26,321 nt of DNA from a virus. The notes beneath the pieces were generated by a model, which was not told the DNA's origin, searched no databases, and worked only from the letters and a program-made list of their open reading frames with translations. How positions within the stretch are numbered: the stretch's first letter is position 1; every line of letters begins with the position of its first letter. The position numbers and the translations under genes were made by a program. Location: positions 1 through 26,321 of the IMG/VR virus record IMGVR_UViG_3300008448_000535. One strand, given 5' to 3'. Shown one piece after another: positions 7,953 through 26,321 of this stretch.

Positions 7953-9866
7953 TTATGATTGGAAAGTCCACACACCCGAATCAAGCGTGTAAGTCTTAAC
8001 TGTTCTAGTAAGAATTAAATCGCTGGTCGGTAACGTGATCGATGATATAGTTATGTCTTCCAATGCAGTGCCCGTAGTAGTTGGACTTACTCCAGTAACA
8101 ACTGTTCTATATTGTTTGTTTAATTCTGTACTGATAGATAATGTTTCAACGCTGTTGGTAAGATATGAACATAATACTCTTAGTGTTGTTCCAGCTATGT
8201 GTTCGACGACTGGAAATACCTGTGCTAGGAAAACAGCAATCGCAGCGTTTGATAATTGCGAACCTGGGTTACTAGGATCACTTATATCCATGGCAAACGC
8301 CAAAGGAGCTTTTTTAACTGCAAAGTCAACATAACCCTTAGGCGCTGCATCATTTGGCAATAGTGGACTTTCAACTTGTTGTGTAAACGAGTTGTAAACA
8401 AATTTTAGATCTTTAATTTCAGTGCCACTTACTCTAATTGTACCAGTTCCAGATGGATTAAACACTAAGTCAGTGTTAGTGAATCGAGTTGAAATTTCAT
8501 TGTCATTAATAAAAATATCATCAACTGTAAAGTCACTAAATGTACCAAAGGATGTTAATCCCGGAGCAGATGTAATCCCAACGCCCAAAGAACTGCCGTC
8601 AATTACCTTGGCACCGTTGACGTAATATGCTTTATTAGCTGCAATATTGAAATCATCTGAGCTATTCCATGCCTGTGACTTTAATGCCGGAAGTGTTCCG
8701 ACTGCTGCTTCGTTAGTCTGTGACCAAATTAACACATGGTCTTTTAGTCCGCCACCGACTGTGCCGCCTTTGAGTATCAGTCCGCCACCGCTGGCAATAT
8801 CATCGCTTGGACTTGGGACTCTAGCAAGCTCAATATTCTTATCTTCAATGGTCATTACTGATGTATTAACTGTTAAAACATCGCCCAGTACCGATAGATT
8901 ACCAGTAATCTCAACACTGCCGCCAACTTTAAGTAAACTGTCCGGAACGTTTTGATAGATGTTTGTTACATCAGTAGCCGCTGAAATTGCAATTACTGTT
9001 CTATATTCAACGTCGTTTTTATTAACTTGAATATTGATGTCTTGCCCTCTAGCTCTGTTTGAGAGTACTAGCTCGCCTAGTGCGGAAATTTTTAAACTGC
9101 CTTGGTTTTGAGATCCAAACGTAAAACCGTCGTCACTGGCTGTTGTAATAGAACCTAAAATAGTAACAGCGGGTGTGTCTGTTCTAACAAAAGATGTAAT
9201 AGGTTGCCCATTTAATAATATCGAATTACTTACAGTGGTGTCAAATTTAACATCATACGCAGAATCTGTTTCTAATCCTGGAAATTTTCCAGAGTTAAAA
9301 CCAATGTTAATGAAAGAATCAGCTGGATAACCAATGATAGGATTAACTGGTTTAAATCGCGCTTTACTAAACACACCTAATAAATTACCGCCAGCATAGA
9401 GTAGAACAACAGTTTGGTCCGATCCTAATGTATCTCTAACTGTCTCAATTATAAATCCACTCTTTAATTGTGTTTTACTATATGCAGGTGATACCAATAA
9501 CGGAGTAGTACCGTCATAAAAGAATAATTGATCCTTACTGGTGTTATACCAAAAATCTCCAGATCCCAACCCAACTGGTTGGATAGATGTTAATGCTGCT
9601 GATCCAACTGCTTTGTAGTCAGATCCTGTATAAACTTTTAAACGTAATTCACCGGTATCGAACCACAATTGTCCCCGTATTGATCGAGAAGGACGAGTAT
9701 TATTCGAGAAATTTTCTAATAACTTAACAAGATTTTCGTTAAGATATTCTCCAAACCCGCTGTAATTTTTTCCAATTAATGTTAAAGACGAACTTAATTG
9801 ATCAATCTGCCCATCTGAAACAGTTGATAAAATATTGCCGTCTGTTTTATTAACTATGTATGCCAT
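7953..9866 (-). CDS. Tail fibre protein, paralogue with GGGLILKGG shaft segment
   Basis: The protein has 637 residues. The N-terminal module (1-130) contains IGKNYSGFGEYLNENLVKLL, GQLWFDTGELRLKVY and GDFWYNTSKDQLFFYDG. A central segment has ITGNLSVLGD, MTIEDKNIELA (about 336-347), GGGLILKGG (about 360), then WNSSDDFNIAANKAYYVNG. I recall this succession from marine T4-like fibre proteins. PKGYVDFAVKK near 507-518 corresponds to the EYVDYK motif of the downstream paralogue and starts a distinct distal domain. The C-terminal 100 residues are Thr/Ser- and Val-rich beta sequence, plausibly the tip that contacts the host. It starts at ATG 9866 with AGGG 8 bases upstream and lies 13 bases after the collar-bearing fibre gene. 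Confidence 0.75.
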   Translation of the reverse strand: MAYIVNKTDGNILSTVSDGQIDQLSSSLTLIGKNYSGFGEYLNENLVKLLENFSNNTRPSRSIRGQLWFDTGELRLKVYTGSDYKAVGSAALTSIQPVGLGSGDFWYNTSKDQLFFYDGTTPLLVSPAYSKTQLKSGFIIETVRDTLGSDQTVVLLYAGGNLLGVFSKARFKPVNPIIGYPADSFINIGFNSGKFPGLETDSAYDVKFDTTVSNSILLNGQPITSFVRTDTPAVTILGSITTASDDGFTFGSQNQGSLKISALGELVLSNRARGQDINIQVNKNDVEYRTVIAISAATDVTNIYQNVPDSLLKVGGSVEITGNLSVLGDVLTVNTSVMTIEDKNIELARVPSPSDDIASGGGLILKGGTVGGGLKDHVLIWSQTNEAAVGTLPALKSQAWNSSDDFNIAANKAYYVNGAKVIDGSSLGVGITSAPGLTSFGTFSDFTVDDIFINDNEISTRFTNTDLVFNPSGTGTIRVSGTEIKDLKFVYNSFTQQVESPLLPNDAAPKGYVDFAVKKAPLAFAMDISDPSNPGSQLSNAAIAVFLAQVFPVVEHIAGTTLRVLCSYLTNSVETLSISTELNKQYRTVVTGVSPTTTGTALEDITISSITLPTSDLILTRTVKTYTLDSGVWTFQS

Positions 9867-9879
9867 GTTTTATACCCTA

Positions 9880-12009
9880 TTATCTATTAGCTGCATCAAA
9901 GAAGTCGCGACCATATCTAATAATGTAATTAATAGTTTGGTATGGGTTCATCAATGGAAATTGTTGAGCCAGTTGAGTTTGATCTTTGATATTTCCAGAA
10001 CTTGCTAAACTAGCTAACTGACCAGCTACAGGCACACCGCCTGCTCTTAATGTTGCACTAGCATCAATAGGAGTTGCGGTGGTTGCGTTAACCGCATAGT
10101 ACTGTTCGCCTGGTGTTCCGTCTGGACGTACACCTCTCATATCATGTTGATGCTGCGGTAAATTACCAGTTGTTAATCCATAGGCAGCTTGACCAGATGA
10201 TCCGCCTAGTCTACTTGCTTCTGTACCAGATACGCGATTAACTGAGCCGCCACCTGCCGAAACAGATGTTGATGCTATTGTTAATCCATTAGACATATTG
10301 TCTGCGCCTAGTGGGAATCGACCTCGAAGATCAGGTAATTTAAAATATGTTTGATAGTCCGATCCTGATTTCCATACATATCCACTAGGAACATATTTGT
10401 CTAATATAAGATTATACAAATCAGAATATTGATTTCTAAAAACTTCACTACCGTCACACAACAAATAACCCTTAGGCACAATGTCACCAGCAAATGGCAT
10501 AATTGTACCAATGGGGACTCCTAGTTCTCCAACAAAGTCGTCTCGAGTCATTTTTCCAAGTTTATTAGATGACAATGAACGAGGAACATATACCAATACA
10601 CTAGTATCATAAGTCGAAGTACTTAGGGTGTTCTGATTAGCAATAAAGTCAAGCGACAGTACAGTATCAAACTCTTTGACAGTTGCTGTTCCAGATCCGT
10701 CAAAGACAACGTCAGTTTTTAATGTAACTGCTCCTTTGAATTTAAAGGTTGTTGTATTTTTTAATGCATTAGCAGTATCAGCATTACCGGAAATGTTACC
10801 TGTAAATGCACCATCAAACTCTTGGGCTGTTATTTTTTTAGAATAGATGTTGTTATATCTAAGTTCGCTTGTTCCAATATCGTAGGTGTTAGATACGGCT
10901 GGTAGAATTGTTCTTGTAGATAATGTGCTTTGAGAATCAATGTTACCGCCAACTACTAATTTCTTTTTAATTGAAACACCGCCTGTGACCTGTAATGCTC
11001 CACTATTGACGTTAACTGCATCAGTTGCGCTGGTTAAATTAACTACATTAGTAATAATTGCATCGCCAGTGACATGCAAGGACGCTTGTGGTTCAAGTGT
11101 ATTAATGCCGACATTATCTTCTTTAACACGAAGAATCGTAGCTGGCAAACCTAATTTAGATGTTTGAATGTCAATTGATCCACCGGCCAACGAATTATAA
11201 AGTTTGCCGCCCGATGAACCACTTAAAATATTAAATGTACTATCAGCACCAACTGTAATACCAGAATTATTTCGAACATTAAGTTGATATTCGGTGGTGT
11301 TAATTGCGTCGGATCTTAAAAATAAAGATGCAGCAACATCTGCTTCGTTAACTCTAAGTGCTTCAGACGATGTAGCAACTCCCAGTAATCTAGTTGGAAA
11401 TCCTGTTACAAATGTTTCTGCGGTAATATTGATTCCGGGTTTAATCCCCTGTGCTGTAAATCCCGCAATATCTGCTTTGGGATAAAATTGCTCCTTGCTG
11501 ATAATCATAATAGGAGAATCATCAATATAAAACGTTACTACTGTCTTATCTAAGTTATCCGATCCAATGATAGTTTCAACAATAGGTCCGGTTCGTTTTC
11601 CGTCAATTGTACTAACATATGGACCAACTAATATCCATTTGTTGCCGGAGTAAATAGAAAGTTGTTGTTTATTAGTATCAACCCATAAATCGCCTTTTCT
11701 ACTAGCCGCTGCATCTGGTGTAGCAACACTAGTTTGAATATTACTAGCTGCTTTCCAGTCAACATTATCCCATATCTGTAATTGCTCGTTGGTTGTGTTA
11801 TACCACAACTGTCCTTCAACGGGGTTGGTCGGTCTTCCCGGTCCTGCAAAATTTTCTAACAATCTAATAAAATTTTCTGCAATAATTTGCCCATAGCCGG
11901 TTACATTACGGCCAGGCAGCGTAATAGAGGTATCAGTATTTGACGTATTGTCATATACAGTAATAGGTACCTTTTGATCTTTTTCAGTAAACGTTACAAT
12001 ATATGGCAT
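9880..12009 (-). CDS. Tail fibre protein with C-terminal phage tail-collar domain
   Basis: The protein has 709 residues. Residues 1-130 are the shared base module (LPGRNVTGYGQ, ENFIRLLENFAG, GQLWYN, GDLWVDTNKQQLSIYSG, LVGPY). VGINTLEPQASLHVTGDA near 298-315 and TYDIGTSELRYNNIYSKKI near 370-390 are shaft motifs typical of long phage fibres. From about 497, PIGTIMPFAG, PKGYLLCDGS and FKLPDLRGRFPLGAD identify a tail-collar domain (Pfam PF07484). The end has LPQHQHDM (about 612-619), an HxH of the kind that binds zinc in the T4 gp12 short tail fibre, and NPYQTINYIIRYGR. The collar fold makes receptor-binding trimers in T4 gp12. The ATG at 12009 has GAGG 6 bases upstream and lies 1 base after the previous stop. 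Confidence 0.88.
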   Translation of the reverse strand: MPYIVTFTEKDQKVPITVYDNTSNTDTSITLPGRNVTGYGQIIAENFIRLLENFAGPGRPTNPVEGQLWYNTTNEQLQIWDNVDWKAASNIQTSVATPDAAASRKGDLWVDTNKQQLSIYSGNKWILVGPYVSTIDGKRTGPIVETIIGSDNLDKTVVTFYIDDSPIMIISKEQFYPKADIAGFTAQGIKPGINITAETFVTGFPTRLLGVATSSEALRVNEADVAASLFLRSDAINTTEYQLNVRNNSGITVGADSTFNILSGSSGGKLYNSLAGGSIDIQTSKLGLPATILRVKEDNVGINTLEPQASLHVTGDAIITNVVNLTSATDAVNVNSGALQVTGGVSIKKKLVVGGNIDSQSTLSTRTILPAVSNTYDIGTSELRYNNIYSKKITAQEFDGAFTGNISGNADTANALKNTTTFKFKGAVTLKTDVVFDGSGTATVKEFDTVLSLDFIANQNTLSTSTYDTSVLVYVPRSLSSNKLGKMTRDDFVGELGVPIGTIMPFAGDIVPKGYLLCDGSEVFRNQYSDLYNLILDKYVPSGYVWKSGSDYQTYFKLPDLRGRFPLGADNMSNGLTIASTSVSAGGGSVNRVSGTEASRLGGSSGQAAYGLTTGNLPQHQHDMRGVRPDGTPGEQYYAVNATTATPIDASATLRAGGVPVAGQLASLASSGNIKDQTQLAQQFPLMNPYQTINYIIRYGRDFFDAANR

Positions 12010-12665: not shown

Positions 12666-12673
12666 TATTTATT
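12666..12673 (-). promoter_or_regulatory. Candidate late promoter box AATAAATA overlapping the giant gene's stop
   Basis: The minus strand reads AATAAATA, one mismatch to TATAAATA, and includes the TAA stop of the giant gene. It lies 16 bases before the preferred ATG at 12649. The same 8-mer precedes the 614-residue fibre gene. It would let the fibre cluster be transcribed independently of the giant gene. The evidence is sequence similarity only. Confidence 0.35.
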
Positions 12674-15600
12674 CTGGTAATTTTGTGCGCTTATTTCTTA
12701 AAAACTTAGCGACCACAGAATCGTTTAAAATTAGTGAAGCACCCGATGCAGGTGTCGTTAACCCACTATCGTAGAAGATTTTACCGCTACGACTAATGAT
12801 TGTAATCTTGGTTCCTGCAGGTACTTTTGACGTAAGTCTAATATATGCTGTAGTTCCGTCAACGGAGAACTCTGCTTCAACATTAATATCGGCTGCTGGA
12901 CTATAAGATCCATTATTTTCCAAGTATTGCGCATACGGATCTTTACGTAAACGTTTTCCGTTAACAAACACTTCGTACTGATGATTTGGTCCAAAGTTAC
13001 TAGGAATTGATGATCGATACCATGTAGTCGGAGTAGCCTTTACTGGGGTATTCATTAACGGTCCAATTAATAAACTACTACCATCGCTGATAAACTCTTC
13101 TTTTTCTTGATATTCACGATACGGTAAACTTTCAGTTACCGATACATCGGCAACATCAGTTCCTGCGGCGTGTACTTCTGGTGTAGAAGATCCTTGAATT
13201 CCCCTAGTCAACTGACCCAGGACATTACCTGTTTTAGTATAGTATTCGATACGTTCGTTGTTGATTAACAACATGCCAGGTACTCTATTTGGCAGATCAG
13301 GCGTAATTAGATCAGATGCATTATTCACAATAATTTCAGTATCGTAATAATTCAATGGCTGATCTAATTTTACTGTGCCGATTGAATAACGCTTATAATG
13401 ATTAACGTTTAGCATATCTTTAAAAATTTCATAAGAGATAGGCAATTCATAATCTTTTTGTCCAAATACAATCAATGTAATAGCGTCTGTTGCTAACGCA
13501 GAATTTTTTAACTTAATAAAACTAAAGTTGATGTCAACTGAGTAATCAACATCAGGAGTCAATCTTGTACCATTTTTGTAAATCCATACTGTTGAAAAAT
13601 TATCAACCTGTCGTCTTAATTTAAAGACTCCTCGATTTCCCGGAAATCTATCTTTGATAATTGACATTGTTGGATATTCACTGAACCATGTTACTTTAAT
13701 AATATCACCGGCTGCTATTGTCAACGATGGCAATAAACGTAGATTATCATTTTCAACTCGATAAAAGTCATCTCGTTGAACTTCTATTCTTATTTCTGCT
13801 CCAAGTTTTAAATATTCTGTAAGCACTGTTAATCGATTATCGATACCATTGAAGCTCCATTGTCTAATAAAGTCAATTGGCTGCTCATCAATATAAACTT
13901 TAATATTTCTAACATCAATACTACCAGGATTGTATAGAGGATCTTGTCCAATGATAATAGAATTATTAATTCCGTCATACTTAAAGAATAGCGCATCGGC
14001 AGAATCAATATATCGCCCGTTAACTTCAACTATCATGTTACCGGCTGCTGAACTTCTATCCAGATTTACAAATTTATCCAAATTATAAATCATTGTACTT
14101 CCATCATGCACAATGAATTGTTCATTGATCCTAATAACACTTTGTCCGGAACTATCAGATTCAATACTATCAGCTAGTACTAATATTTTAATTGACTCCC
14201 TAAATGCAGGTGGAACGGCAAACTGAATTACAGTATTATCTTTGTCATTTAATAATCCTTTAGAAGTAATGAAATTTGCTGGATACTCAATTCCGTTGAC
14301 TGTGACTAGAATATAACGAGTATCTTCAAATCTTGCACTTGTTAAAAATAACGTAGTTGTACCGTCGCCTACAAATTCTTCATAGTCAAGAATTTGGTAT
14401 CCGCCCGGACCGATAGTAACAACTTCTACAATCTTTCCTGCTGGCGGAATTACATTAAATTCAATTTGTTGATCTATTAAGTTAAGATAATAATCATAGG
14501 TTATGTTATAAGGATCTAAACTTTGAGTTTGCTTAATCTTATCAACATATACAATAACTGACTTCGATTCAAGAATGGGGTGGCCAATTTTAAAAATTTT
14601 AGTTGCACCGTCTGTATATTTGACAACACTTCTAACCTGTGCAGCACCAGTGCTTGTACGTTGGAACGTTTTAATAGATACAGAATCTAGCACCTGGCCG
14701 GGAACATTTTCTTCCGGAGCAGGAACTTGATATGGACTAATAAATGTATCACCATTAATGGATATTTCGTCAGCAGTTAGGCCATTAGCGGTAGAATATG
14801 CATTATTAATGTTAGATAAATTACCACCGGATAATGTAGTGTCCTGAACGTTTGTATCAGTAATACTTACAGTACCGTCACTATCGCTAGATCTAAAGAT
14901 TAAAATATCACCAGCTTGTGTATGTAGACTATATGGTAGGTTTATTTCTTTAGTAACACCGTTGCCAATAAATGTATTCATTATTGCGCCTTCGGCTGCT
15001 ACACTATTACCATTAGCTTGTATAGTCGATCCGTCATATAAATTAAAGTAAGGATCATCTATTCTACTAAATCTACCAGTCTTATCTGGTAGTGTAGAAA
15101 AATCTCCACGCTTAATATAAATGTTAATGGCCTGACCAACTGACGGAGTATATGGCAACGTAATACTTGTTGTGCTTCCGTCGGCAACTATATAGTAGTC
15201 TGCATTAGGAATAACACTGTCCCAGCTGTCACTAAACCAAGGCAGGGCATCCCAACCGCCAGTTGAGTTAAAAGAACTGCCCTGTATAACTACACCGCCA
15301 AAGTCTAAGCCGGTCATTAATTGTTTAGGATCTTTTCCTAACATGCCGTCTTTGGCAACATAATGTTTGTTAATCCGGTCAATACTGTCTAAAATATCGT
15401 CATTCTTTTCATATGATATAGTAATAGTCGACAATTCAATCGGTGTACTAGTAAAAGCAAGTTTTCCTTTAAGAACAGTTAGCCCGTCTATAACGTCATT
15501 AAACAACATAATGTTGTATTCATTTGACAACAATAGTGATCCATTAACTGAAACAGTAATCTTAGATTTATCAGTGGTTGGTGGATATTTTAAATCGTAT

Positions 15601-18600
15601 ATTGCAGTAAGTCCGTCGGCTGTGATAGTTTCAGTTTTAAAGAAATTTTGATATGTTCCAGTTTTAGAAATTCTATCAAATTTCATAGTAACATCAAACG
15701 AACGCACAACTCCGTTGCCAATAAATGCTGTGGCCTTTGCTTCAGTTCCGCTGGTTTGATATCCACCAACTAGTGTAATAGTAGGCGCAGATGTATAACC
15801 AAAACCTTGCTCAGTTACAACTACTCCGGTGACTACACCATTTGATGTAAATGCCTGTGCTTTTGCCCCTTGTCCTCCGCCGCCACTAATATCAACTGAC
15901 GGAGTATTAATATATTCACTACCCTCGTCATAGACTACGATATCAGTTATTTTAAATGTATTGTTATCTTTCCAAGCTTTCCACGGATAGGTATTTAATA
16001 ATTCATTGTTAGATTTAACAGGAACTAATTTACCTTCAACTTCGTCGTAGTAAGGAGGCAGGTCAAAATCTGACATTGCAGAGTTTGTATTATCTAAATG
16101 ATCGTAGCTACTTGTATATTCTCTAATTTTAGTTCTATATGGTTTAACTTCTTTTAGATATTCTTCGTAGCTTTCTAGATTATCATTTTTATAATGTGTT
16201 TTCTGATCTAGGCCACCCACACGATGTATTGCATTTAAGAAACTTGTTTTAAATGCCCAGTCAACGTATAGTTGCTCAGAGAAAATATAATGAACACTAT
16301 TAAAGAATAGTTGATTCCATCTAGCCGCTAAGTCGTTAATTAAAATATCATCACGAATTGTTTTGATGATATTGCGAGTTTCACTAACAGGCTGTCTATC
16401 ATAGGAATTAGAATCATAACTACCTATATTGTCATATCCGATTTCATTTATACTTTCGTCATACAACAGTGATGAAAATTCAAATGTACCATTGTGTCTA
16501 CCTACTATTTGATATTTTTCATTAATAGTAGTTGCAGATTCATTGATTAACTTTAATACTGCCCAACCGCCATTACCATATTCGGTAATTTTAATTAGAT
16601 CATTTAATTTAAGTTCAATAGTTCTTGCTAACTGTGGCTCGTAATAGGTACCCGGAATTTCTTCAACTACTCTGCTTGAACTGCCATAGCCCATAGCCCA
16701 CCAATCTTTTAGAGACCAATATCTAGTAGTGTCAAAATCTTGCGTCAGCGATCTAAAGAATGACGTACTCTTGCTATCAAATTGATACACAGACCAATAG
16801 TTATTATATGTTTCATCATTGTTAACCAGTACAGAGAATGCTCTTACTGTTAATGTAACCGAGTCATATTTTTTACCAGCATTATTGATTTTATATCCAG
16901 AAACACGTCCCGAATTATCAATTGTTAATGTAACAGATGCTCCAGTTCCAGTTCCAGTAATAACTACTGGGGGTGCAACACGATAACCAAATCCAGCATC
17001 AATAATATCAATCGATGTTAATTTGCCGTCAACTAAATTTCCTTTAATTAGTGCAGGTTTAATCCTTGCAATGTTAACAGTAATTAGGTCTGCATATGTA
17101 TCTAATGTAATATCATATAGATTTAATTTAGAATTAGGTATCTCGTCAATTGAATTCAACGTTGTAAAATCAATAATATCAGCGAATGAATCAGTTTCTA
17201 AAATTGAATTTACTTCATCAATGAATACTTTTAGTGCTGTTTGTCTGTTAACAAACATGCTCTGTCTTGGACGATAGCCGGTGCCATATCGTTGCTTTGG
17301 TGATAACGCAGGATCAGGAACAGTATTGCCAATCATATCGTAGCCAATTAAACTATCAATCCACTTATTCTCAAGATTAGTTGTAGGTACACTACCTGCA
17401 ACACCTTCAGTTAATAAGTGGTACTCGTGATGGACTAGATTAATTCGACTGTCATTTTTATAAAATTTAAAGTTAAATGTACCAGGTGTGCTTGGTAGAT
17501 ATTTTTCAAAATTGTATGCAAGGAATTTGTTTTCATCAATCATTGCTACAAACGGAATACCCGCAGTAGTTGGATTAGTAATGTATAATGCAACCGCAGC
17601 GGTCGATAATTTTCTGTCCGGAACATCTGGAATATTTGCAGAATTTTTAACCCAATAATAGTACAGTCTCTTTGCAACAGTACCTGTTGCTTCATCGTAT
17701 ATTATCTTTGTATTATAAGAAGTATCGTTAGGATACAACGGCTGTCCGGAGATACCAAGTGAAAGTCCCTCAGTAGTATCGGCAATTGTAGACCATTCGC
17801 TAGGTACAATTAAAGTTTCAACCCATTCAAAAACATCAACGGTTGCTCCTTTAGCAAGTTCGTTCCAATGCCCGGCTCTATAAGCAATGTCCCCTTGCTC
17901 GTAGTTTATCCATTTAACATTTTTCATGTTAATCCAGACTTTGCCAACATTTTTTTCGTACCAAGTTTGGCCAGTGTCAACCGTCACACCTTCGTCAGTA
18001 CCGAACGAGTAAATTGCAGGATCATAAGGAACTTTAAAATCAAGTTCTTGTTCAACAATTCCTAAAAACTTGTATTTGTAGTGATCAACAATATCAATAT
18101 CGCTGATTAGCTCGTTTTTATCAGTATCATAGATTCCAATACTTTTTAGTAAACCAATATTAACCTGTAACGGTTGTGCGCCAATTGTATTCCATGTTAA
18201 CTCACCTTGTTGCTTTTTAAATTTTCTAACTTGTCCAAACGGCAAACCGCCAACTTTATAAGTAGGCGATCCAACAACAATAGTATTGTTCTTAACATCT
18301 AAAGAAGAACCAAAAGATTCATCTGCAATAAATGTAGCATCTAATTCTTCAGCAAGGAAGTATTCTGTGAATTGTTGTTCATATACATAAACTCTACCGG
18401 TACTACCTTGCTCTTTAAAGAAGCCAGTTGTCTTTTTATCAAATGTTGTAGAATTATTATCAAACTTAACTTTAAGTTTTGTTATAGAATTTTGTGCAGA
18501 AATAACAATTTTGTCTGCATCGTCGGTTACTTTAACTTGGGTTCCAAACAATTCAAAGTTAGAAGATTCGATACCGGAAAATTTATTAGTAAGCTTGTAT

Positions 18601-21600
18601 TTGTTTTCAGTAGATGAGTATTTTAAAACATAAGCATAACCGTTGTCGGCAAAATTAATATTGCCAAATGGTGCAGAAGCAATGATAACTGTACCATCTT
18701 TGTTAGTATCAACTGAAGCGCCAAATCGATCGCCTGCTTCTAGTACTTCTAGGCCGATATCAGTAATTGACGGAATAGTAGAATTACTTACTGTTTGAAA
18801 TAGCTGATACACTCCGATCGAATTACGTTTGTAGACAAACAGCTTACCAAACTTTTTACTTGCACTATCAGAGTCAGCAAAATTAATAAATGTCCAATTA
18901 ACTAAAGTTGCCGGAATATCGTTGATGCTGGTAGAAGCAGTTACTCTATAATATTCAGTGTTGTATCTTACAACATCGCCGCTAGTATATAGTTGGTATG
19001 ATACCCAAACGCCTTTATAGTTTGTGATCGATTTTTCATCGCCATACGGAGATCCGACTACAAGAGTAAGTCCGTCAGTACTTAGAGATATCGAATGTCC
19101 AAACTCGTCTCCTGCTTTAACAATTTCCGGAAGTCTAAATGTGGTACCGTTTAAAATACCAACTTCTGTGATTAGTCCGTCTTCTATAATTGCTGCACTT
19201 GTTGGCAACGAACTTTGCGTTATAGTGTCTGACATCTCAATCCAATCAGCAGAGTTAACTGTGATCGAACTGCCGTCGCCGTTGTTGTCAGCTAATGCCT
19301 TCCATAATTTATTTCCGTACCAAACAATTGACCCAGCTGGATAAAATCTCGTTTGATCGTAGATACCAAGGTAAGTACTGTCTTCAATCAATTCCCACTC
19401 TGGCAACAATGGATCAGTACTGTTTAGCTTGTACAGATATACTGCACCTGTGTTGTTGGTTGCTCCTGGTGCAGAAACTGCCAATTGATAAGAGCCGTCA
19501 GCCAATACAGCTGAAGAAATACTAAATCCAAACTTTTCTTCTGGTTGTGGTCTTGGACTTACAAATGTTTCTTTTTCAGTCCACTGTTCATTTTTCCACT
19601 GATATACTGTTACAACCCCTTGTTTAATATAGCCCGCATTACCTGCTGTAGTTATTGCCCAATAAGCAGTATCAATCGGTAAACGACCGGTTGTATTTTG
19701 CAATGCAATATAAGACAAAGATCCGTATTGTACTATTGAACCTTTTCTATAGTACTTGGTATTAACATAGATGCTATTATATGTGTCTGCAAGAATATTT
19801 GTAGCAATTTCCCAATCTTGAGTGTAAACGTTAATAGAACTACCGTCGCCATTAACATTACGCAATGCTCTCCATAATTTCCCTGCAAATATTACAATGT
19901 CATTTTGATTATAAAATGCAGTTGTAGAGAAATCTCCTTGGAATCTAGAACCAACACCACTAACTAACGGAGAACCAACGAATAGCCATTTCTCATCAGG
20001 TGTTGCATTTAATACATAACCAAATTTACCTAACAATCTAGTTTCAAGAAAGTCCGGTGCTGTTAAGGTCTGAAAGCTGCGTAATTTGCCATCAAAGGTA
20101 TCGGTATATGCAACAACCGCATTCGATCCAGGGATTGATACGATAGTTTGATTTCTAATTATTAATTGAAGTACTGCAACTCCGGCATTAACTGGTTGTG
20201 TGAATCCGTATTCGTCAATCAAGTTACTTGAGTAAATCGAATTAATTTTCTCCAATACTTCCCAACGATCATTTTCGTCAACATCAAGAAATAATCGATT
20301 TCCAACTTTTAATTTTGCAAATTCAGTCGGACTGATTGATCTAGCATCATTAAATCTTGCAGGCTCAAAATAACCAACGGCTGCAAGATAACTATCTTCT
20401 AAAATAGGCTCGTCAGTTACTGAAGTTTTAATTCCAAAATCATAACCATCAACTGTTAATATCTTGAAGAAACCAGATAGATTAACAATTCCACTTATGC
20501 TAATAACATCACCTACATTAAACCCATGGCGCATATTACAAGTAACTGTAATAATCTTTGTAGTATTATCCCTAATAACACTTTGAACAAACATGTTAGA
20601 TCTAGTATATCTTAGAACGTTCCATTGTTTCAACGGGTCAAAAGTAATCCATACATGACTTCCATAACTAATGTCAGTCACTGATAACGATGTAATATCG
20701 TCTATGGTTTTAACAATTGCATCAGCTTGATCAATTTTTACATAGCCAGCATTTCTATTCGGTACATCGTAATGTGCCATTGGTAATACCGCACTAGTTG
20801 CACCAACTGATTTAATTGTAAAATCAGTTAACGGAATTCTATAATATAAATCACTTGTATCAACTGCATTTGTTGGGTATTCGCTGATAATAATCGGCTG
20901 CGGAGTTAGTTTAAATTTGCCTTTGTCAAGCAAAAATTCAAATTCAGTGAATTGATCTGTTCCACCAAAATCTCCTACTCTAAACGCCCATTCTTCTTTT
21001 AGACTAATACTATCAGAGTCTGTTCGGCTAAGCTTATCAAATATTTTTGTGATTGCATTTGCTGTCCCTTTTTCTCTAATAAATCCTTGATAGATTTTAA
21101 ATTGTGATACTGGGTCTTGGCTCAGGTTGTTCAAGTAGTCACGCTGCTGATAGCCTACAGCGTGTCTAGCCAAGTCTCTATGACTAGAACTTAATCCGTC
21201 TGCATCTAAGTCGTAATAATCTTCGAATTGATTAATTCGATAATCAAAGTTTGCTACTAAGCCTTTAGTGGGATGACTGTCAAGTTTTGTCCATTTAGTA
21301 TCATCAAATTCTTCAGTACCGGTTTGTTTAGCTTGACTTGTCCAATTAAATTCTCTATAACTTACAATGTCACCTAGGCCATAGTCTATAAACGGTTGCC
21401 ATTCCTGGATGTTTACATTGTCAAACAAGAATCCCGGACTAGTATAGTCACCGTCCCAATCTGTGGTTCTATAGCCAATAACTTTAACTCTATCTTGTCT
21501 ATAGCCCGATGTTTTATCATATAACACATCGTTAAACACAGTTTTATCCTTAAACACAACAACGTGCTCTTTAAGTACAAAATTTAAATTAACAAAGTAA

Positions 21601-24600
21601 ATGCCATCTGTGGTATCAGTTACACTAATAGAAAATGTTTGATAATCTCTGTTTACATTAATAAATGCCGGTAATAAGATATTTCCGTCTTTCTTAAAAA
21701 TTGTATATTCGTAGAAACTGTCAAGCAAATTGTCAACTGATCCCATAAGGAATCTAATATCAAATTTATATGCCGCTGGACTTAGAGTAATTAATTGACC
21801 TTCGGCCCAATTGTGTTTACTCCAGAATAAGAATTCCTTAATTGAAGTGCTCCAGTCATTAACTGACTGTGTGGTGTAATTGTATTCATCAAACACAATT
21901 CCTAGAGATAATAGATATTGCTCGTATCCGTATAGAAAATCTGCAACAGATTGCAACGTCGGTAATACTGTACTATAGGCAATCTTTTTAGTTTCAGTTT
22001 TGTTAAAATACTGACGCTTGTTTACTTCAACTGCGCCAACTTGATCAAGTCGAGCTAGTTGTTTAAATTGAGTATCATCAAATGTGTTACCACTTGTATG
22101 ACCTTTAACAACACGATAGTATTTGTCACCGTTCTTTACAACTTCGCCTACTGCGTAGTATTGTGATGCAGTCCATACTAAAAATGTATCAGTAACTCCG
22201 CCTACAGAAACTAAAGGATCAGATTTTGATTCTAATGCTTGATAATAATTAAAGAACGGATTTTTATTATCATAACCAGAAAGTTTCCAACCTGTATTAA
22301 CTTTTTCAACAATTACACCGCTATAATTAATTGTTAAAAACGGTGTTCCTATGTTAAAAATAATGTCGTAATCTTCTTGCGGAATAAACACACTGCTAGA
22401 TTTTGATTTAGGATTTTTGCTGTCTAGGAGATACCTTTGCTGAGCTTGATCAACAAATCCTCCTATTTTATTAGATAATCTAACATCAATATTTTTAACT
22501 TTATCAGTAAGGATAGACAACGATTGATCTTTTCCTTTTAAGAAATCAGCAATATAATTTAATAATCCAGAAGTTTGTGTTACCAATGGAACCGGTAATT
22601 GAATTGCATCAATACTTAAAAATACATTTGTATCTGTATGAACTGTTTGATTAATTTTATTTTTCTTAATTCTCGACACGTCAATGGCTTTTGGAATAAA
22701 CTCAAAAGGTTTCATTAACGATAATGCTGTTACAATTGCAAACGGATAACTTGGGCTCTTTCTCCAAGCTGCTTCTGCAGGTCCAACGTCACCAAATTTA
22801 AAATTACCAGTTGCATTAATTAAACTAAAGTTTTGTGCTAGATTAGACTGCAAGGGAGAAATTAGTCGTCCTTGATCATCTACTGGCAAATGTGATAATA
22901 GCGATGGTCTTGCATATCGATTGTAAGTTCCAGCACGAGTACCTTGACGTATAATGCCATCACGTAGGTCTTCCCATAGTAATGTGTTGCCCCGAGTATA
23001 TGGAGCAGGACCGTATTCACTTTCCCACCACGTTGGTCGTTGGCTAAACCCTAGCATTTCCCATGGACTGGTGTGCGGTCTATCAGTGTCATAGAACCAT
23101 AAGTAAATGCCTCTCCACCAGCCTAATAAGTTTCGTTCTTGAGTGAAATCGGTCATATCACTATAGGTGTAAGTGAAACTATTTTCAGTGTCTAAATAAC
23201 TGTTCTCTACATAGTCAACATTACTATTAGTGATCCACGAAAGAAATTGTGGTTCTAGAATTTTATCTAGTTGTGCTTTTGTATAAACACCTGTACCGTA
23301 ATAACCACCAAGGATAGCATCAATATCAAACTTTGCAGGGTCATACTCAGCTTTAATATTATTATAAATGCGCTTTTCTAATTCCATTAACAACTCGTCA
23401 CGATAATCATCATAAGCAACTACAATGCTGCCATCATGACCTTGTATTACCTGTGTTGGAGTAATGTAGGTGTCGTCAATAAACATAGTCGGAGTATATT
23501 TTTTATACAACCCAAGCTTGGTTGGGGTAGACGGAATAAAAGCGTAAGATGTAGAATTGTATTCTCTAATCTCAATAACATCGCCGTCGGCCACGTCTAT
23601 TAATAAATTTAGATATCCGAATGTTTTATTAAATGTGTAATCGGTACCGTGTAATAACTGTGTTTGATTTTTATAAACATACACTGCTATTCTAGATAAT
23701 GAATTTAAATCAAACTTTGTTGTTAGTGCAAATGTCTTTACTTGATCTTCGACTTTGTATATTAAATTTTTATGCGATCCTGCGCCGATCATGTCTGAGT
23801 CAGAAAATGCATTGTCGATGTTCTTAATTTTAGACATTTCGTTAAGAATAGCATCAACAAAATTTACAGGATTTTGATCATATTCTAACGTTGTTGCCAA
23901 TGTTAAGAAATTGTTTTTAAACTGTTGATACGATAATGCAGAGTAATTAATAGACTTGATTACGTTTACATCTTTATCGCAGATTAGCATTAACGATAAC
24001 GGTAATACGCCTTCATGTTTAACTAGGCGGCGACCGTATTTTTGGAAACCAGTGATGTCCCTAATATTGCTCGATCCGGGAAATACTCCAGTAAATGCGG
24101 TATCAAGTTCAACCATTGTTCCTAGATGATCAAGCACTTGTCCGTAGGTAATTTCTACTAAATCTTGATTAAGAGGATTCTTTTCCAATCCTGTGGGTAT
24201 TTCGTAAAACCCCTGATCCGCCTCAGCATCGGAGTATACCTTAATAGAAATTACATCATCAACTGCAAAGTTTTTCTCAAAGACGAATTGCTCTTTACGT
24301 AGCCCTTGTCTTGTAAAGGGTTTGTTAAACAACAGACCATTTTTATAAAACACAATTTTTTCTTTAGATGCTTGATTCCAATACACACTGTCAAATGCAA
24401 CAATATTAGTAGCCTTGGTTATTAAAATACTATCCACAACTGGTTGTAGATAGTCAGATGCTGTAATTTCCCAAGTGTTAGTGTATGAGGACGATCGATT
24501 AGCTGCATTGATTTTTAAAAAACCAGTATTGATTTTTTTCGTTGCAATAGATGGCTGCTGATACGCAAATGTATCAGTATCCCAATTAGCAGTAAACAAT

Positions 24601-26321
24601 ACATCACCGATGTTATCAATGTTTAGGTAGCTCAATGAGATACCTAGTTCTTTATCTACTACTCCATTGCCTATCTTATAACCAAGTATCGTTGTACCTG
24701 TAAATGTGCTCACTGGATATGTCAATGTATCACCGAATGAGTTTTCATCGGTGTCATATACATCAAATAATATTGGTTGATTAACCGTAGTCTTTGATTG
24801 ACTAATTTTCCAAGTGGTGCCATTAAAGTGGAACATCTTACCGCGATAGGTTGCACCTTTTAATACTAACACTCCATCGCCTGCTTGACTAATAGCATCA
24901 GTATCTTCAACTAAACTAATTTGTGTTCCGGTATTTCCGCTATACTGAGTAGCAATAAAATTAACTCTATAAATTTTATTTTTTACTAAATTGTCTGTAT
25001 CTGCTGTGACTAGTACTCTTGCGCCCTGGAATAGGCGTTCCCCGTCTATGCTATAACCCGACTTACCTTCAATGGTGCTAAAAACATCTTTAGTAAAGTT
25101 ATCTATAAAATCAACTGCTACTTTAGCAATTGCACAATGGTCGAATAATTGAACATTAGGTGCATATTCGATGATGGGACGTTTTGCACGTAGACTTTCA
25201 TCTGCATCTAAACTAGAATTATTAAGGCTGTGAGAATATTCTAAAACACTTTTATGAAACCATCTATTATTTCTACTCCACGGATTTCCGTCAATGCTGG
25301 CACGATTAGAAATAATATAGTCTTTTACGCCGGGAAATGATGTTGCTTCGTCATATGGTAATGTATCAAATCCTTCGTTATCAAATAATACTTCTGTATT
25401 TGTATTATCTAAGACTGGCGGAGTTAATCTGTCAAACTCAATTAGAGTAATGCTAGAGCCAACGCCTTCAATTAACCATCTACCGGTTGCATATTTTGTA
25501 GGACTTGTCTTACCGGCAAAACCGATAACCATGCCATTGGTAAACTTAACACCGTTACTACTAGTGTATGTTTTCTTTTGTAGTATTTCTTTTTCAATGT
25601 CAATAAAGGTATTTTCTAAAATATCTTTGATAATGAATTGCCCGGTTCGCAGGGGTTCTTGTTCACTGATGTAAAATAGGCTGTCCGGAGCATCGTTGGG
25701 AACTGTAAATGTTAAAGTCCCCACTTCGATACCGTTGTTGGTAACTCCAGTATTATAGGTATTAACATCGGTTAGGTCAGTGGCTTCCCAGTCTTGTGAA
25801 AATTCATTGATTGAACTGCCGTCACCTTGAATGTCAACTTTTGCCTTCCACAATTTATTATTGTAGGCAACTACTTCACCGGCTGTATAAAACATCAACG
25901 GGTTGAATTGCCCCTGAACTAGATCAATAGATCCAGTACGTCTAATAGAAAATTTATTTCTAGGGGAATTAACTTCAAAATTGTAGGTTTGACCTCTGTA
26001 TAGAATAATCGTTGGATTATAGGTTAGCCCGTCTGGATAGAATAACCAGGTTGGTAAATCACCGTTTTCAACTGCTCTAACTCTAAACGTTGATTCGATC
26101 TTTTGAGATTGCCCTAATACTGCGACAGACGGTGGTCCACTTGGTTGCCAATAGTATTCTCTAAAATTAACAAACTTATCCCAATCAATTGGAGGAGCCC
26201 AGCTATAACATTCATCCTTGGTAATTAAATCATCCCGCTGAATATCATTAGCAAAAAAGTTTAATTGATTTTTAAAATCTAAGTAATCGTAGAAATTAGT
26301 GATTGTTTTCTTTTTATTTGT
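12669..26321 (-). CDS. Giant mosaic virion protein, at least 4,550 residues, 5' end outside the window
   Basis: The frame is open from the window edge (26321) to TAA at 12669-12671. I translated the 141 codons upstream of the TTG at 25898 and found no stop, so that TTG is not the start. This upstream part contains WDKFVNFREYYWQPSGPPSV and ILYRGQTYNFEV, a cupredoxin-like beta motif. In order the protein then shows a cassette of the GDxVxY/W type (25895-25781); PTPTKLGLY and QGHDGS segments near 23470-23530; a Trp-rich block (23142-22938); two cassettes (22160-22048, 21391-21277); a six-blade FG-GAP propeller interrupted by four cassettes (20037-18209); GxGY repeats (17034-16824, 15960-15690); beta-sandwich-like repeats (15650-13440); and a C-terminus with QLTRGIQGS and AKFLRNKRTKLP. 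There is no membrane segment or enzyme motif. Very large proteins near baseplate genes are known in T4-like marine phages (some annotated VrlC); homology to those is my recollection, not tested. Confidence 0.85.
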   Translation of the reverse strand, partial: TNKKKTITNFYDYLDFKNQLNFFANDIQRDDLITKDECYSWAPPIDWDKFVNFREYYWQPSGPPSVAVLGQSQKIESTFRVRAVENGDLPTWLFYPDGLTYNPTIILYRGQTYNFEVNSPRNKFSIRRTGSIDLVQGQFNPLMFYTAGEVVAYNNKLWKAKVDIQGDGSSINEFSQDWEATDLTDVNTYNTGVTNNGIEVGTLTFTVPNDAPDSLFYISEQEPLRTGQFIIKDILENTFIDIEKEILQKKTYTSSNGVKFTNGMVIGFAGKTSPTKYATGRWLIEGVGSSITLIEFDRLTPPVLDNTNTEVLFDNEGFDTLPYDEATSFPGVKDYIISNRASIDGNPWSRNNRWFHKSVLEYSHSLNNSSLDADESLRAKRPIIEYAPNVQLFDHCAIAKVAVDFIDNFTKDVFSTIEGKSGYSIDGERLFQGARVLVTADTDNLVKNKIYRVNFIATQYSGNTGTQISLVEDTDAISQAGDGVLVLKGATYRGKMFHFNGTTWKISQSKTTVNQPILFDVYDTDENSFGDTLTYPVSTFTGTTILGYKIGNGVVDKELGISLSYLNIDNIGDVLFTANWDTDTFAYQQPSIATKKINTGFLKINAANRSSSYTNTWEITASDYLQPVVDSILITKATNIVAFDSVYWNQASKEKIVFYKNGLLFNKPFTRQGLRKEQFVFEKNFAVDDVISIKVYSDAEADQGFYEIPTGLEKNPLNQDLVEITYGQVLDHLGTMVELDTAFTGVFPGSSNIRDITGFQKYGRRLVKHEGVLPLSLMLICDKDVNVIKSINYSALSYQQFKNNFLTLATTLEYDQNPVNFVDAILNEMSKIKNIDNAFSDSDMIGAGSHKNLIYKVEDQVKTFALTTKFDLNSLSRIAVYVYKNQTQLLHGTDYTFNKTFGYLNLLIDVADGDVIEIREYNSTSYAFIPSTPTKLGLYKKYTPTMFIDDTYITPTQVIQGHDGSIVVAYDDYRDELLMELEKRIYNNIKAEYDPAKFDIDAILGGYYGTGVYTKAQLDKILEPQFLSWITNSNVDYVENSYLDTENSFTYTYSDMTDFTQERNLLGWWRGIYLWFYDTDRPHTSPWEMLGFSQRPTWWESEYGPAPYTRGNTLLWEDLRDGIIRQGTRAGTYNRYARPSLLSHLPVDDQGRLISPLQSNLAQNFSLINATGNFKFGDVGPAEAAWRKSPSYPFAIVTALSLMKPFEFIPKAIDVSRIKKNKINQTVHTDTNVFLSIDAIQLPVPLVTQTSGLLNYIADFLKGKDQSLSILTDKVKNIDVRLSNKIGGFVDQAQQRYLLDSKNPKSKSSSVFIPQEDYDIIFNIGTPFLTINYSGVIVEKVNTGWKLSGYDNKNPFFNYYQALESKSDPLVSVGGVTDTFLVWTASQYYAVGEVVKNGDKYYRVVKGHTSGNTFDDTQFKQLARLDQVGAVEVNKRQYFNKTETKKIAYSTVLPTLQSVADFLYGYEQYLLSLGIVFDEYNYTTQSVNDWSTSIKEFLFWSKHNWAEGQLITLSPAAYKFDIRFLMGSVDNLLDSFYEYTIFKKDGNILLPAFINVNRDYQTFSISVTDTTDGIYFVNLNFVLKEHVVVFKDKTVFNDVLYDKTSGYRQDRVKVIGYRTTDWDGDYTSPGFLFDNVNIQEWQPFIDYGLGDIVSYREFNWTSQAKQTGTEEFDDTKWTKLDSHPTKGLVANFDYRINQFEDYYDLDADGLSSSHRDLARHAVGYQQRDYLNNLSQDPVSQFKIYQGFIREKGTANAITKIFDKLSRTDSDSISLKEEWAFRVGDFGGTDQFTEFEFLLDKGKFKLTPQPIIISEYPTNAVDTSDLYYRIPLTDFTIKSVGATSAVLPMAHYDVPNRNAGYVKIDQADAIVKTIDDITSLSVTDISYGSHVWITFDPLKQWNVLRYTRSNMFVQSVIRDNTTKIITVTCNMRHGFNVGDVISISGIVNLSGFFKILTVDGYDFGIKTSVTDEPILEDSYLAAVGYFEPARFNDARSISPTEFAKLKVGNRLFLDVDENDRWEVLEKINSIYSSNLIDEYGFTQPVNAGVAVLQLIIRNQTIVSIPGSNAVVAYTDTFDGKLRSFQTLTAPDFLETRLLGKFGYVLNATPDEKWLFVGSPLVSGVGSRFQGDFSTTAFYNQNDIVIFAGKLWRALRNVNGDGSSINVYTQDWEIATNILADTYNSIYVNTKYYRKGSIVQYGSLSYIALQNTTGRLPIDTAYWAITTAGNAGYIKQGVVTVYQWKNEQWTEKETFVSPRPQPEEKFGFSISSAVLADGSYQLAVSAPGATNNTGAVYLYKLNSTDPLLPEWELIEDSTYLGIYDQTRFYPAGSIVWYGNKLWKALADNNGDGSSITVNSADWIEMSDTITQSSLPTSAAIIEDGLITEVGILNGTTFRLPEIVKAGDEFGHSISLSTDGLTLVVGSPYGDEKSITNYKGVWVSYQLYTSGDVVRYNTEYYRVTASTSINDIPATLVNWTFINFADSDSASKKFGKLFVYKRNSIGVYQLFQTVSNSTIPSITDIGLEVLEAGDRFGASVDTNKDGTVIIASAPFGNINFADNGYAYVLKYSSTENKYKLTNKFSGIESSNFELFGTQVKVTDDADKIVISAQNSITKLKVKFDNNSTTFDKKTTGFFKEQGSTGRVYVYEQQFTEYFLAEELDATFIADESFGSSLDVKNNTIVVGSPTYKVGGLPFGQVRKFKKQQGELTWNTIGAQPLQVNIGLLKSIGIYDTDKNELISDIDIVDHYKYKFLGIVEQELDFKVPYDPAIYSFGTDEGVTVDTGQTWYEKNVGKVWINMKNVKWINYEQGDIAYRAGHWNELAKGATVDVFEWVETLIVPSEWSTIADTTEGLSLGISGQPLYPNDTSYNTKIIYDEATGTVAKRLYYYWVKNSANIPDVPDRKLSTAAVALYITNPTTAGIPFVAMIDENKFLAYNFEKYLPSTPGTFNFKFYKNDSRINLVHHEYHLLTEGVAGSVPTTNLENKWIDSLIGYDMIGNTVPDPALSPKQRYGTGYRPRQSMFVNRQTALKVFIDEVNSILETDSFADIIDFTTLNSIDEIPNSKLNLYDITLDTYADLITVNIARIKPALIKGNLVDGKLTSIDIIDAGFGYRVAPPVVITGTGTGASVTLTIDNSGRVSGYKINNAGKKYDSVTLTVRAFSVLVNNDETYNNYWSVYQFDSKSTSFFRSLTQDFDTTRYWSLKDWWAMGYGSSSRVVEEIPGTYYEPQLARTIELKLNDLIKITEYGNGGWAVLKLINESATTINEKYQIVGRHNGTFEFSSLLYDESINEIGYDNIGSYDSNSYDRQPVSETRNIIKTIRDDILINDLAARWNQLFFNSVHYIFSEQLYVDWAFKTSFLNAIHRVGGLDQKTHYKNDNLESYEEYLKEVKPYRTKIREYTSSYDHLDNTNSAMSDFDLPPYYDEVEGKLVPVKSNNELLNTYPWKAWKDNNTFKITDIVVYDEGSEYINTPSVDISGGGGQGAKAQAFTSNGVVTGVVVTEQGFGYTSAPTITLVGGYQTSGTEAKATAFIGNGVVRSFDVTMKFDRISKTGTYQNFFKTETITADGLTAIYDLKYPPTTDKSKITVSVNGSLLLSNEYNIMLFNDVIDGLTVLKGKLAFTSTPIELSTITISYEKNDDILDSIDRINKHYVAKDGMLGKDPKQLMTGLDFGGVVIQGSSFNSTGGWDALPWFSDSWDSVIPNADYYIVADGSTTSITLPYTPSVGQAINIYIKRGDFSTLPDKTGRFSRIDDPYFNLYDGSTIQANGNSVAAEGAIMNTFIGNGVTKEINLPYSLHTQAGDILIFRSSDSDGTVSITDTNVQDTTLSGGNLSNINNAYSTANGLTADEISINGDTFISPYQVPAPEENVPGQVLDSVSIKTFQRTSTGAAQVRSVVKYTDGATKIFKIGHPILESKSVIVYVDKIKQTQSLDPYNITYDYYLNLIDQQIEFNVIPPAGKIVEVVTIGPGGYQILDYEEFVGDGTTTLFLTSARFEDTRYILVTVNGIEYPANFITSKGLLNDKDNTVIQFAVPPAFRESIKILVLADSIESDSSGQSVIRINEQFIVHDGSTMIYNLDKFVNLDRSSAAGNMIVEVNGRYIDSADALFFKYDGINNSIIIGQDPLYNPGSIDVRNIKVYIDEQPIDFIRQWSFNGIDNRLTVLTEYLKLGAEIRIEVQRDDFYRVENDNLRLLPSLTIAAGDIIKVTWFSEYPTMSIIKDRFPGNRGVFKLRRQVDNFSTVWIYKNGTRLTPDVDYSVDINFSFIKLKNSALATDAITLIVFGQKDYELPISYEIFKDMLNVNHYKRYSIGTVKLDQPLNYYDTEIIVNNASDLITPDLPNRVPGMLLINNERIEYYTKTGNVLGQLTRGIQGSSTPEVHAAGTDVADVSVTESLPYREYQEKEEFISDGSSLLIGPLMNTPVKATPTTWYRSSIPSNFGPNHQYEVFVNGKRLRKDPYAQYLENNGSYSPAADINVEAEFSVDGTTAYIRLTSKVPAGTKITIISRSGKIFYDSGLTTPASGASLILNDSVVAKFLRNKRTKLPE
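13440..15650 (-). repeat. Array of degenerate beta-sandwich-like protein repeats in the giant gene
   Basis: About seven units, with an eighth near 12775-13105, follow the pattern: Asp-Gly-Ser/Thr plus hydrophobic strand, then VxVNG or IYKNG, then a Tyr-containing strand, then PPAG or a similar turn before a last strand. Examples are DGTTTLFL with LVTVNGIEY, DGSTMIYNL with VEVNGRYI, and TVWIYKNGTRL with VDYSVD. The units differ too much for recent DNA duplication. They resemble stacked beta domains seen in long phage tail proteins and probably form an extended rod. Confidence 0.6.
15690..15960 (-). repeat. GxGY glycine-rich repeats, second cluster
   Basis: Two successive units, EGSEYINTPSVDISGGGGQG and QGFGYTSAPTITLVGGY, are each followed by a Gly/Ala-rich strand (GAKAQAF, EAKATAF) and NGVV. 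This GxxYxxxPxVxIxGG pattern recurs in marine phage structural proteins and suggests a narrow beta-solenoid or hairpin stack. Confidence 0.6.
16824..17034 (-). repeat. GxGY glycine-rich repeats, first cluster
   Basis: A first unit AGFGYRVAPPVVITGTGTG is followed by ASVTLTI, and a second, weaker unit AGKKYDSVTLTV follows DNSGRVSGYKIN. It is the same pattern as the cluster at 15690-15960 and lies about 290 codons before it in the protein. Confidence 0.55.
18209..20037 (-). repeat. Six FG-GAP propeller blades interrupted by carbohydrate-binding-like cassettes
   Basis: FG-GAP-type blade cores, in protein order: FGYVLN..WLFVGSP (about 20030), FGFSIS..LAVSAPG (19540), FGHSIS..LVVGSPYGD (19115), FGASVD..VIIASAPFGN (18740), FGTQVK..IVISAQ (18560) and FGSSLD..TIVVGSP (18325). 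The G-x-VYVY strands of these blades are also visible (GAVYLYK, GYAYVLK, GRVYVYE). Spacing between cores is about 165, 142, 125, 60 and 78 residues. The three long gaps hold small cassettes of the form GxxVxYxxxxYxA...DW at 19925-19800, 19755-19647, 19350-19231 and 18995-18885. FG-GAP blades form integrin-alpha-like beta-propellers. Confidence 0.75.
21277..21391 (-). repeat. Carbohydrate-binding-like cassette
   Basis: DYGLGDIVSYREFNWTSQAK is followed by FDDTKWTKLD. The order GDxVxY, an aromatic strand, then a terminal W fits small chitin-binding (CBM5/12-like) folds. It lies apart from the propeller. Confidence 0.5.
22048..22160 (-). repeat. Carbohydrate-binding-like cassette
   Basis: YYAVGEVVKNGDKYYRVVKG is followed by FDDTQFKQLARLD. 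It matches the cassette at 21277-21391 including FDDT, with Phe in place of the last Trp, so it may be a degenerate copy. Confidence 0.5.
22938..23142 (-). other. Tryptophan-rich segment of the giant protein
   Basis: Seven Trp occur in about 61 residues: GWWRGIYLWFYD, SPWEMLGF, TWWESEYGPAPY and TLLWEDLRDG. I recall closely similar PWEMLGF/PTWW segments in other giant marine phage proteins, so this looks like a conserved core rather than a variable tip. Function is unknown. Confidence 0.5.
25781..25895 (-). repeat. Carbohydrate-binding-like cassette with GDGSSI motif
   Basis: FYTAGEVVAYNNKLWKAKVD, then GDGSSINEFSQDWEATD. The NGDGSSI/QGDGSSI loop and KLWKA/KLWRA strand recur in two of the cassettes inside the propeller (19925-19800 and 19350-19231), and the matching DNA is also similar there, which points to duplication within the gene. 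Confidence 0.55.

Follow-up and report, generated by a model that had tools for sequence, protein, structure and literature searches.

The stretch of viral DNA analyzed in this study (hereafter the window) is the whole 26,321 nucleotides from positions 1 to 26,321 of IMG/VR record IMGVR_UViG_3300008448_000535. On its minus strand lies a giant gene, in whose product a first-pass annotation recognized a beta-propeller with carbohydrate-binding-like cassettes spliced into its blades. This locus raises the question of what kind of propeller a phage tail protein would carry and what role the inserted cassettes would play. One possible reading of our results, with a probability of about 0.32, is that they form an integrin-shaped, evolvable baseplate head of widespread uncultured T4-like phages: the propeller would have been acquired once, perhaps bare, and the face of blades W2 to W4 would be a strip of cassette sockets that docks fibers or host molecules, so that the tail is tuned by how many cassettes are present. 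Our confidence in the architecture itself is high; it comprises a predicted propeller, cassettes that are separate and optional domains, and the position of the gene. The features concerned are:

12669..26321, minus strand: giant virion structural protein, relative of phrog_10938 (the window encodes 4550 residues; the 5' end is lost at the contig end)
18201..20240, minus strand: predicted integrin-alpha-type seven-bladed beta-propeller, residues 2028-2707 (AlphaFold2 model, VIA-align to integrins, Pfam FG-GAP_2)
20061..20174, minus strand: blade W1, residues 2050-2087, with four strands in the model
19563..20030, minus strand: blade W2, residues 2098-2253, its B-C loop interrupted by cassettes S1 and S2
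19794..19940, minus strand: cassette S1, carbohydrate-binding module (CBM) 5/12 fold, residues 2128-2176, in the W2 B-C loop
19644..19784, minus strand: cassette S2, residues 2180-2226, in tandem with S1
19389..19538, minus strand: blade W3, residues 2262-2311
19230..19376, minus strand: cassette S3, residues 2316-2364, between W3 strand D and W4 strand A
18789..19109, minus strand: blade W4, residues 2405-2511, with S4 in its B-C loop
18879..19022, minus strand: cassette S4, residues 2434-2481, in the W4 B-C loop
18576..18731, minus strand: blade W5, residues 2531-2582, free of a large insert
18345..18554, minus strand: blade W6, residues 2590-2659, with a slightly enlarged B-C loop
18201..18320, minus strand: blade W7, residues 2668-2707
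25776..25913, minus strand: cassette N, residues 137-182, outside the propeller
22056..22202, minus strand: cassette K1, residues 1374-1422, in the conserved core, outside the propeller
21270..21428, minus strand: cassette K2, residues 1632-1684, in the conserved core, outside the propeller

Residues 1950-2756 of the giant protein were modeled with AlphaFold2 from an alignment with 43 uncultured relatives. In the resulting prediction, whose mean predicted local distance difference test (pLDDT) score was 77.6 and predicted template modeling (pTM) score 0.74, seven four-stranded blades form an integrin-like ring. VIA-align placed positions 79-758 of the model (approximately residues 2028-2707) on integrin alpha-L with a Z-score of 38.5 (360 aligned, root-mean-square deviation 3.0). 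A model of the relative L017, which has one cassette, had a mean pLDDT of 81.9 and matched an integrin with a Z-score of 37.5. The 50 fold matches listed for each of the two models were all integrins, so that the earlier term "lectin-like" does not suit this propeller. When compared with viral predicted structures, the best matches of the window model were giant-virus proteins, the second of which was named as an FG-GAP repeat protein; their TM-scores were low, at most 0.41 among the matches listed.

Pfam searches with the whole protein were in line with the model for two of the three families proposed for checking. PF14312 (FG-GAP_2) scored 49.4 bits against a cut-off of 23 and PF02839 (CBM_5_12) 43.8 bits against a cut-off of 26.2, whereas PF01839 alone remained below its cut-off (16.1 versus 22.1 bits). 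The NCBIfam search gave no match. The entire giant gene is present on L002, a 115 kb IMG/VR contig, and is 100% identical (rounded) to the copy in the window; in a genome search of that contig, none of 7 single places exceeded the PF02839 cut-off. In 90 proteins, the blade profile gave 421 matches, compared with 3 in decoys (1 shuffled and 2 reversed), and the cassette profile gave 476 matches in 90 real proteins, including those of 8 named phages, compared with 0 in shuffled or reversed ones; both profiles were built from the tested proteins, so that this control speaks for specificity only. That the region is a sequence artefact without any propeller is thus extremely unlikely, given these decoy counts, the Pfam scores above cut-off, the two models that match integrins and the at least 3 blade matches found in every one of the 72 relatives with a complete propeller region.

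The FG cores start at residues 2100, 2264, 2407, 2533, 2592 and 2670. All six cores reported previously were therefore found, with the reported spacing (164, 143 and 126, then 59 and 78 residues); the blades, however, number seven: in the model, W1 precedes these six and lies outside the coordinates given for the propeller at that time. The four cassettes fill the long gaps as described. One of them sits between blades (W3 and W4) as stated, while three, rather than two, are found within blades (the tandem in W2 and the one in W4), and the count of four holds for the propeller only, because the protein has three more elsewhere (N, K1 and K2). In the model, each cassette is a small strand group of its own. 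Confidence is lowest for S2 (pLDDT 61-69 by blocks), because only two sequences of the alignment have S2. The core Tyr before the GD was at least 90% aromatic at all 6 sites tested (S2 not being among them), and the core Trp near the end was at least 90% aromatic at 3 sites, 60-90% at 2 and unresolved at S4.

Relatives were the best 80 of 575 (597 stretches) from one scan; L002, being the same phage as the window, was omitted from all counts. The propeller region was complete in 72 of these loci and incomplete in 8. Those with 600-870 residues (53 of the 72) were reduced to 43 by removal of near-copies, and together with the window they gave an alignment of 44 rows. In this alignment two rows have four cassettes (the window and L016), 37 have three, four have two and one has one. 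The propellers of L092, L093 and L099 lack any cassette, while those of L083 and L086 show five cassette matches, one of them partial. As the number of cassettes varies from none to four, with up to five matches, while the blades stay, the cassettes are separate and dispensable domains. The first-pass annotation had proposed comparing homologs for each insert and had named two outcomes that would contradict it, a prediction devoid of a propeller and cassettes that form integral blade strands; neither was found, and separate small domains in the loops of a propeller are what the AlphaFold2 model and VIA-align predict. Among the sequences examined, S2 occurs only in the window phage (window and L002) and L016. 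S1 is present in all 44 rows, though absent from L092, L093 and L099. The cassettes outside the propeller were tallied in 82 sequences, not all of them complete: K2 was present in all 82, K1 in 81 and N in 72. The tally enters K1, K2 and N from named phages under "other".

A tree of the core protein was built with 48 rows, for which 38 of the 80 loci were chosen; it is midpoint-rooted and its deep order is unsure, and its label "three cassettes" stands for S1, S3 and S4 only. Eight named jumbo phages without a propeller fall on one side of a branch (100/99), followed by L099 with its bare propeller. The window and L016 are paired (100/100) and L017 is their sister (98/95), whereas the bare L092 groups (100/99) with the S1-bearing L089, L091 and L095. 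On the simplest reading, the propeller was gained once, S2 was gained in the line of the window and L016, S3 and S4 were lost in L017, and S3 was lost in at least one more line. The bare state of L092 may be a loss, and the order in which a bare propeller came first depends on a single sequence, L099, which is a long branch. L099 is a contig of a metagenome-assembled genome labeled Rickettsiales (MED657) that holds this phage gene cluster with the cassette-free propeller; this one match in a genome collection hints only faintly at Rickettsiales as a host.

The B-C and D-A loops of an up-and-down blade share a face. All four propeller cassettes of the window, S1 to S4, are therefore predicted from strand order to project from one face. 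In the 44-row alignment, cassettes occur only in the B-C loop of W2, in the stretch from W3 strand C to W4 strand A and in the B-C loop of W4; in all 13 realigned rows that have S3, it follows strand D. The W4 B-C loop has 13 residues in L017, which is without S4, compared with 67 in the window protein; W3 and W5, whose B-C loops are free of cassettes, have 11-20 residues there. Across the 44 rows, differences in A-B and C-D loop length do not exceed 14 residues, except for the W3 C-D loop, which holds a real insert in L036. A strict one-face rule for all inserts was rejected by opposite-face inserts in the wider set. Distant loci (L089, L091, L094 and L095) have 92-104 residues in W3 C-D, where their alignment is unsure.

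The giant protein matched phrog_10938 in PHROGs (E 0, 1018 bits). On L002, the gene directly upstream encodes a baseplate wedge subunit (phrog_10646, E 3e-294), and the gene order is hub/lysozyme, small wedge protein, large wedge protein and giant gene. In the T4 baseplate order, gp7 comes after gp6. Being directly after a gp6-like wedge gene, the giant gene occupies the position of T4 gp7. An annotated wedge gene also adjoins the homolog in 6 of the 8 named phages, the neighbor being labeled otherwise in SCTP-2 and Vibrio 2.275. Two conserved blocks were compared with the PDB as profiles: one retrieved no sequence at E up to 5 and the other retrieved three at chance level. The homolog of PA5oct is marked in its annotation as detected by mass spectrometry; in excerpts of a paper on the PA5oct relative MIJ3, no mention of the giant protein was found (PMC6892783).

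The phrog_10938-type giant proteins of PA5oct, RaK2, GAP32, Atu_ph07, Phosso, SCTP-2, XaC1 and Vibrio 2.275 are homologous to the window protein in the blocks that flank the propeller: the first alignment starts near residue 300 and ends at 1810-1940, and the second starts near residue 2700. Different from the window protein, all eight have 0 blade matches. The propeller gave 0 matches to the named phages at 1e-5 and weak ones only at E up to 10, and S3 alone gave none. The gap between the matched blocks ranges from 109 residues (GAP32) to approximately 1,530 (Phosso) in these eight phages. The junction between the conserved blocks (approximately residues 1940-2710) looks like an insertion hot spot. 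A counterpart of K1 aligned in PA5oct, Phosso, Atu_ph07 and SCTP-2 and none in Vibrio 2.275 and GAP32; no counterpart of K2 was found in the six named jumbo phages aligned at that site.

In CBM5, an exposed aromatic pair is almost fully conserved, together with two buried aromatics (PMC8449059). The exposed pair is Y282-W283 in CjCBM5, and its position was mapped via the alignment with 2rts. Of 469 cassettes, 9 were too short for this comparison, which covered the family-5 site; both aromatics were present in 0 of the other 460, one in 30 and neither in 430. What is conserved in the cassettes is the buried core aromatic pattern. In the Anabaena injection system, the cassette profile matched residues 40-63 of All3316/Cis13 (E 1.2e-5); it also matched the tail spike gp124 (E 1.8e-5 overall, although its stretches 29-67 and 80-117 are weak singly, with 0.44 and 2.3). 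The chain in question, 8fqc_P1, is probably gp124 of phage Milano, judging from its name and length (587). The N-terminal domains of Cis13 bind the baseplate (PMC8894136), and residues 1-175 of Milano gp124 are a tail-binding module (PMC10811340). Weaker matches were found near the N-termini of two long-tail-fiber proximal subunits (E 0.038 and 0.074). The glycan-binding role suggested earlier thus finds no support in the exposed pair or in the cassette-like stretches of two tails, which belong to attachment parts.

Docking is proposed because cassette-like domains seem to sit at the roots of spikes or fibers in two described contractile tails. In the proposed mechanism, the giant protein would be a component of a T4-like contractile-tail baseplate. 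Its lineage would have acquired a seven-bladed propeller of the integrin-alpha type, flanked by two conserved blocks. CBM5/12-fold cassettes would then have accumulated in the loops of W2 to W4, those of the window all on one face. At the baseplate edge, the propeller would serve as a platform, with its cassettes acting as small protein-docking modules that hold tail fibers, spikes or neighboring baseplate parts on this face. The chances that the cassettes dock proteins are about even.

The propeller could instead be an adhesion head whose cassettes are CBMs that make weak, multivalent contact with host polysaccharide, similar to the CBMs of evolved Dit proteins. The CBM_5_12 score above cut-off, the single face predicted from strand order for the four cassettes and the differences in cassette number between close relatives all agree with such a role, and the insertion of CBMs into phage baseplate proteins has been established (PMC8540738). 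However, the complete exposed pair is missing from 460 of 460 cassettes, the buried core being what is conserved, the cassette-like stretches of the two described tails lie in attachment parts, and K1 and K2 are nearly constant, unlike a host-range determinant; we regard adhesion as rather unlikely. Less probable still is a near-neutral decoration, in which small stable folds without a specific binding role spread in tolerant loops, some being retained and others lost. The loops of the same propeller do accept unrelated inserts (W3 C-D and W3 A-B), and several lineages lack cassettes while their propeller is intact, but S1 is present throughout the main alignment, even if L092, L093 and L099 lack it, which argues against decoration. 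Furthermore, for 435 of the 441 cassettes with an assigned site (28 of the 469 had none and were excluded), the nearest neighbor occupied the same site, which makes the cassettes look like long-lived residents, although the comparison is partly circular, as sites were assigned with alignments containing the cassettes and near-copies were in the set. For no cassette did a paralog in its own protein outscore the best match in another protein. Recent copying of cassettes inside the gene was rejected, the DNA identity among the seven being just 0.40-0.58.

Several observations weigh against a baseplate head that docks proteins from one face. The best solved matches of the cassette profile are chitinase binding domains (2rts, 5.3e-8; 1ed7, 8.3e-6), a result that also favors adhesion, and sugar could be bound via residues other than the tested pair. 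Cassette loss between close relatives, such as L017 and the window, would also be expected from host-range adaptation. Among 11 other minus-strand frames of the window, 0 had a cassette (best domain E 0.09, over 16 residues), and therefore cassette-to-cassette docking in the tail is unsupported; likewise, no candidate docking partner emerged from the sequences. With regard to the face, the W3 C-D loop of 11 of 34 sequences is enlarged by 94-199 residues that form no cassette, and L074, L083 and L086 have a W3 A-B insert of 383-404 residues with one or two cassette matches. With regard to the baseplate, PHROGs files phrog_10938 under "head and packaging", in disagreement with the position in a baseplate gene cluster, and the two conserved-block profiles revealed no homology to T4 gp7.

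The W3 A-B insert of L074, L083 and L086 occupies an opposite-face loop and reads as repeated domains.

Among known systems, the headpiece of integrin alpha (alpha-L, alpha-M, alpha-X and alpha-V) is the best fold match, the seven-bladed FG-GAP propeller being common to both. Different from integrin alpha, the window protein is a phage protein whose inserts are CBM5/12-fold cassettes, and its identity was 14-18% in the listed rows. The A-B loops of integrins carry a calcium-binding motif of the DxDxDG type; the pattern tried for this loop, D.[DNS].[DG]..[DNE], had no match in residues 2028-2710. In alpha-I integrins, a whole domain is inserted in a loop of the top face.

Similar to the window protein, the evolved Dit and tail proteins in siphophages of Gram-positive bacteria have CBM-fold domains inserted in a conserved baseplate protein (PMC8540738; listed by the searches also PMC6669499 and PMC10688798). 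Their CBM fold is a different one, whereas the scaffold in the window is a propeller, part of a giant protein encoded in a contractile-tail cluster, and has several small cassettes, whose glycan binding is putative. The chitinase CBM5/12 (chitin-binding type 3) shares the sequence profile and the buried aromatic core with the cassettes and differs in its exposed pair. The N-terminal module of Milano gp124 and Cis13 (All3316) are cassette-like in sequence and are also part of contractile tails; in these two, a trimeric spike or fiber has the domain at its root, whereas the giant protein of the window has it inserted within a different domain. In the literature searched, mostly outside subscription journals, we recognized no description of CBM-fold cassettes inserted in a propeller of a phage baseplate. 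The earlier impression that the architecture is undescribed stands to that extent; inserted CBMs in baseplate proteins were already known. Propeller domains are reportedly the subject of papers on phages SU10 and T7.

Our results place a predicted integrin-type propeller in a phage protein that is assigned to the baseplate by gene position. The natural series from none to four cassettes on one propeller makes the role of inserted CBM-fold modules testable across relatives. In addition, the label "carbohydrate-binding module" on phage tail proteins may denote a docking fold and not a sugar binder.

Elsewhere on the L002 contig, an 832-residue frame on the minus strand (L096:5833-8328) has one cassette at residues 376-430. 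Near the start of the window, positions 118-933 of the minus strand encode a protein of 271 residues whose beginning gives the impression of a glycosyltransferase from its sequence; it had no Pfam or PHROGs match at the limits used. Cassettes on the tail fibers of the window were considered, and none was found. These fibers form a paralogous set downstream of the giant gene: four tail fiber-like proteins on the minus strand (3287-5131, 6124-7938, 7953-9866 and 9880-12009) have a common N-terminal domain (phrog_14394/phrog_15511), and the one at 9880-12009 also has a Collar domain.

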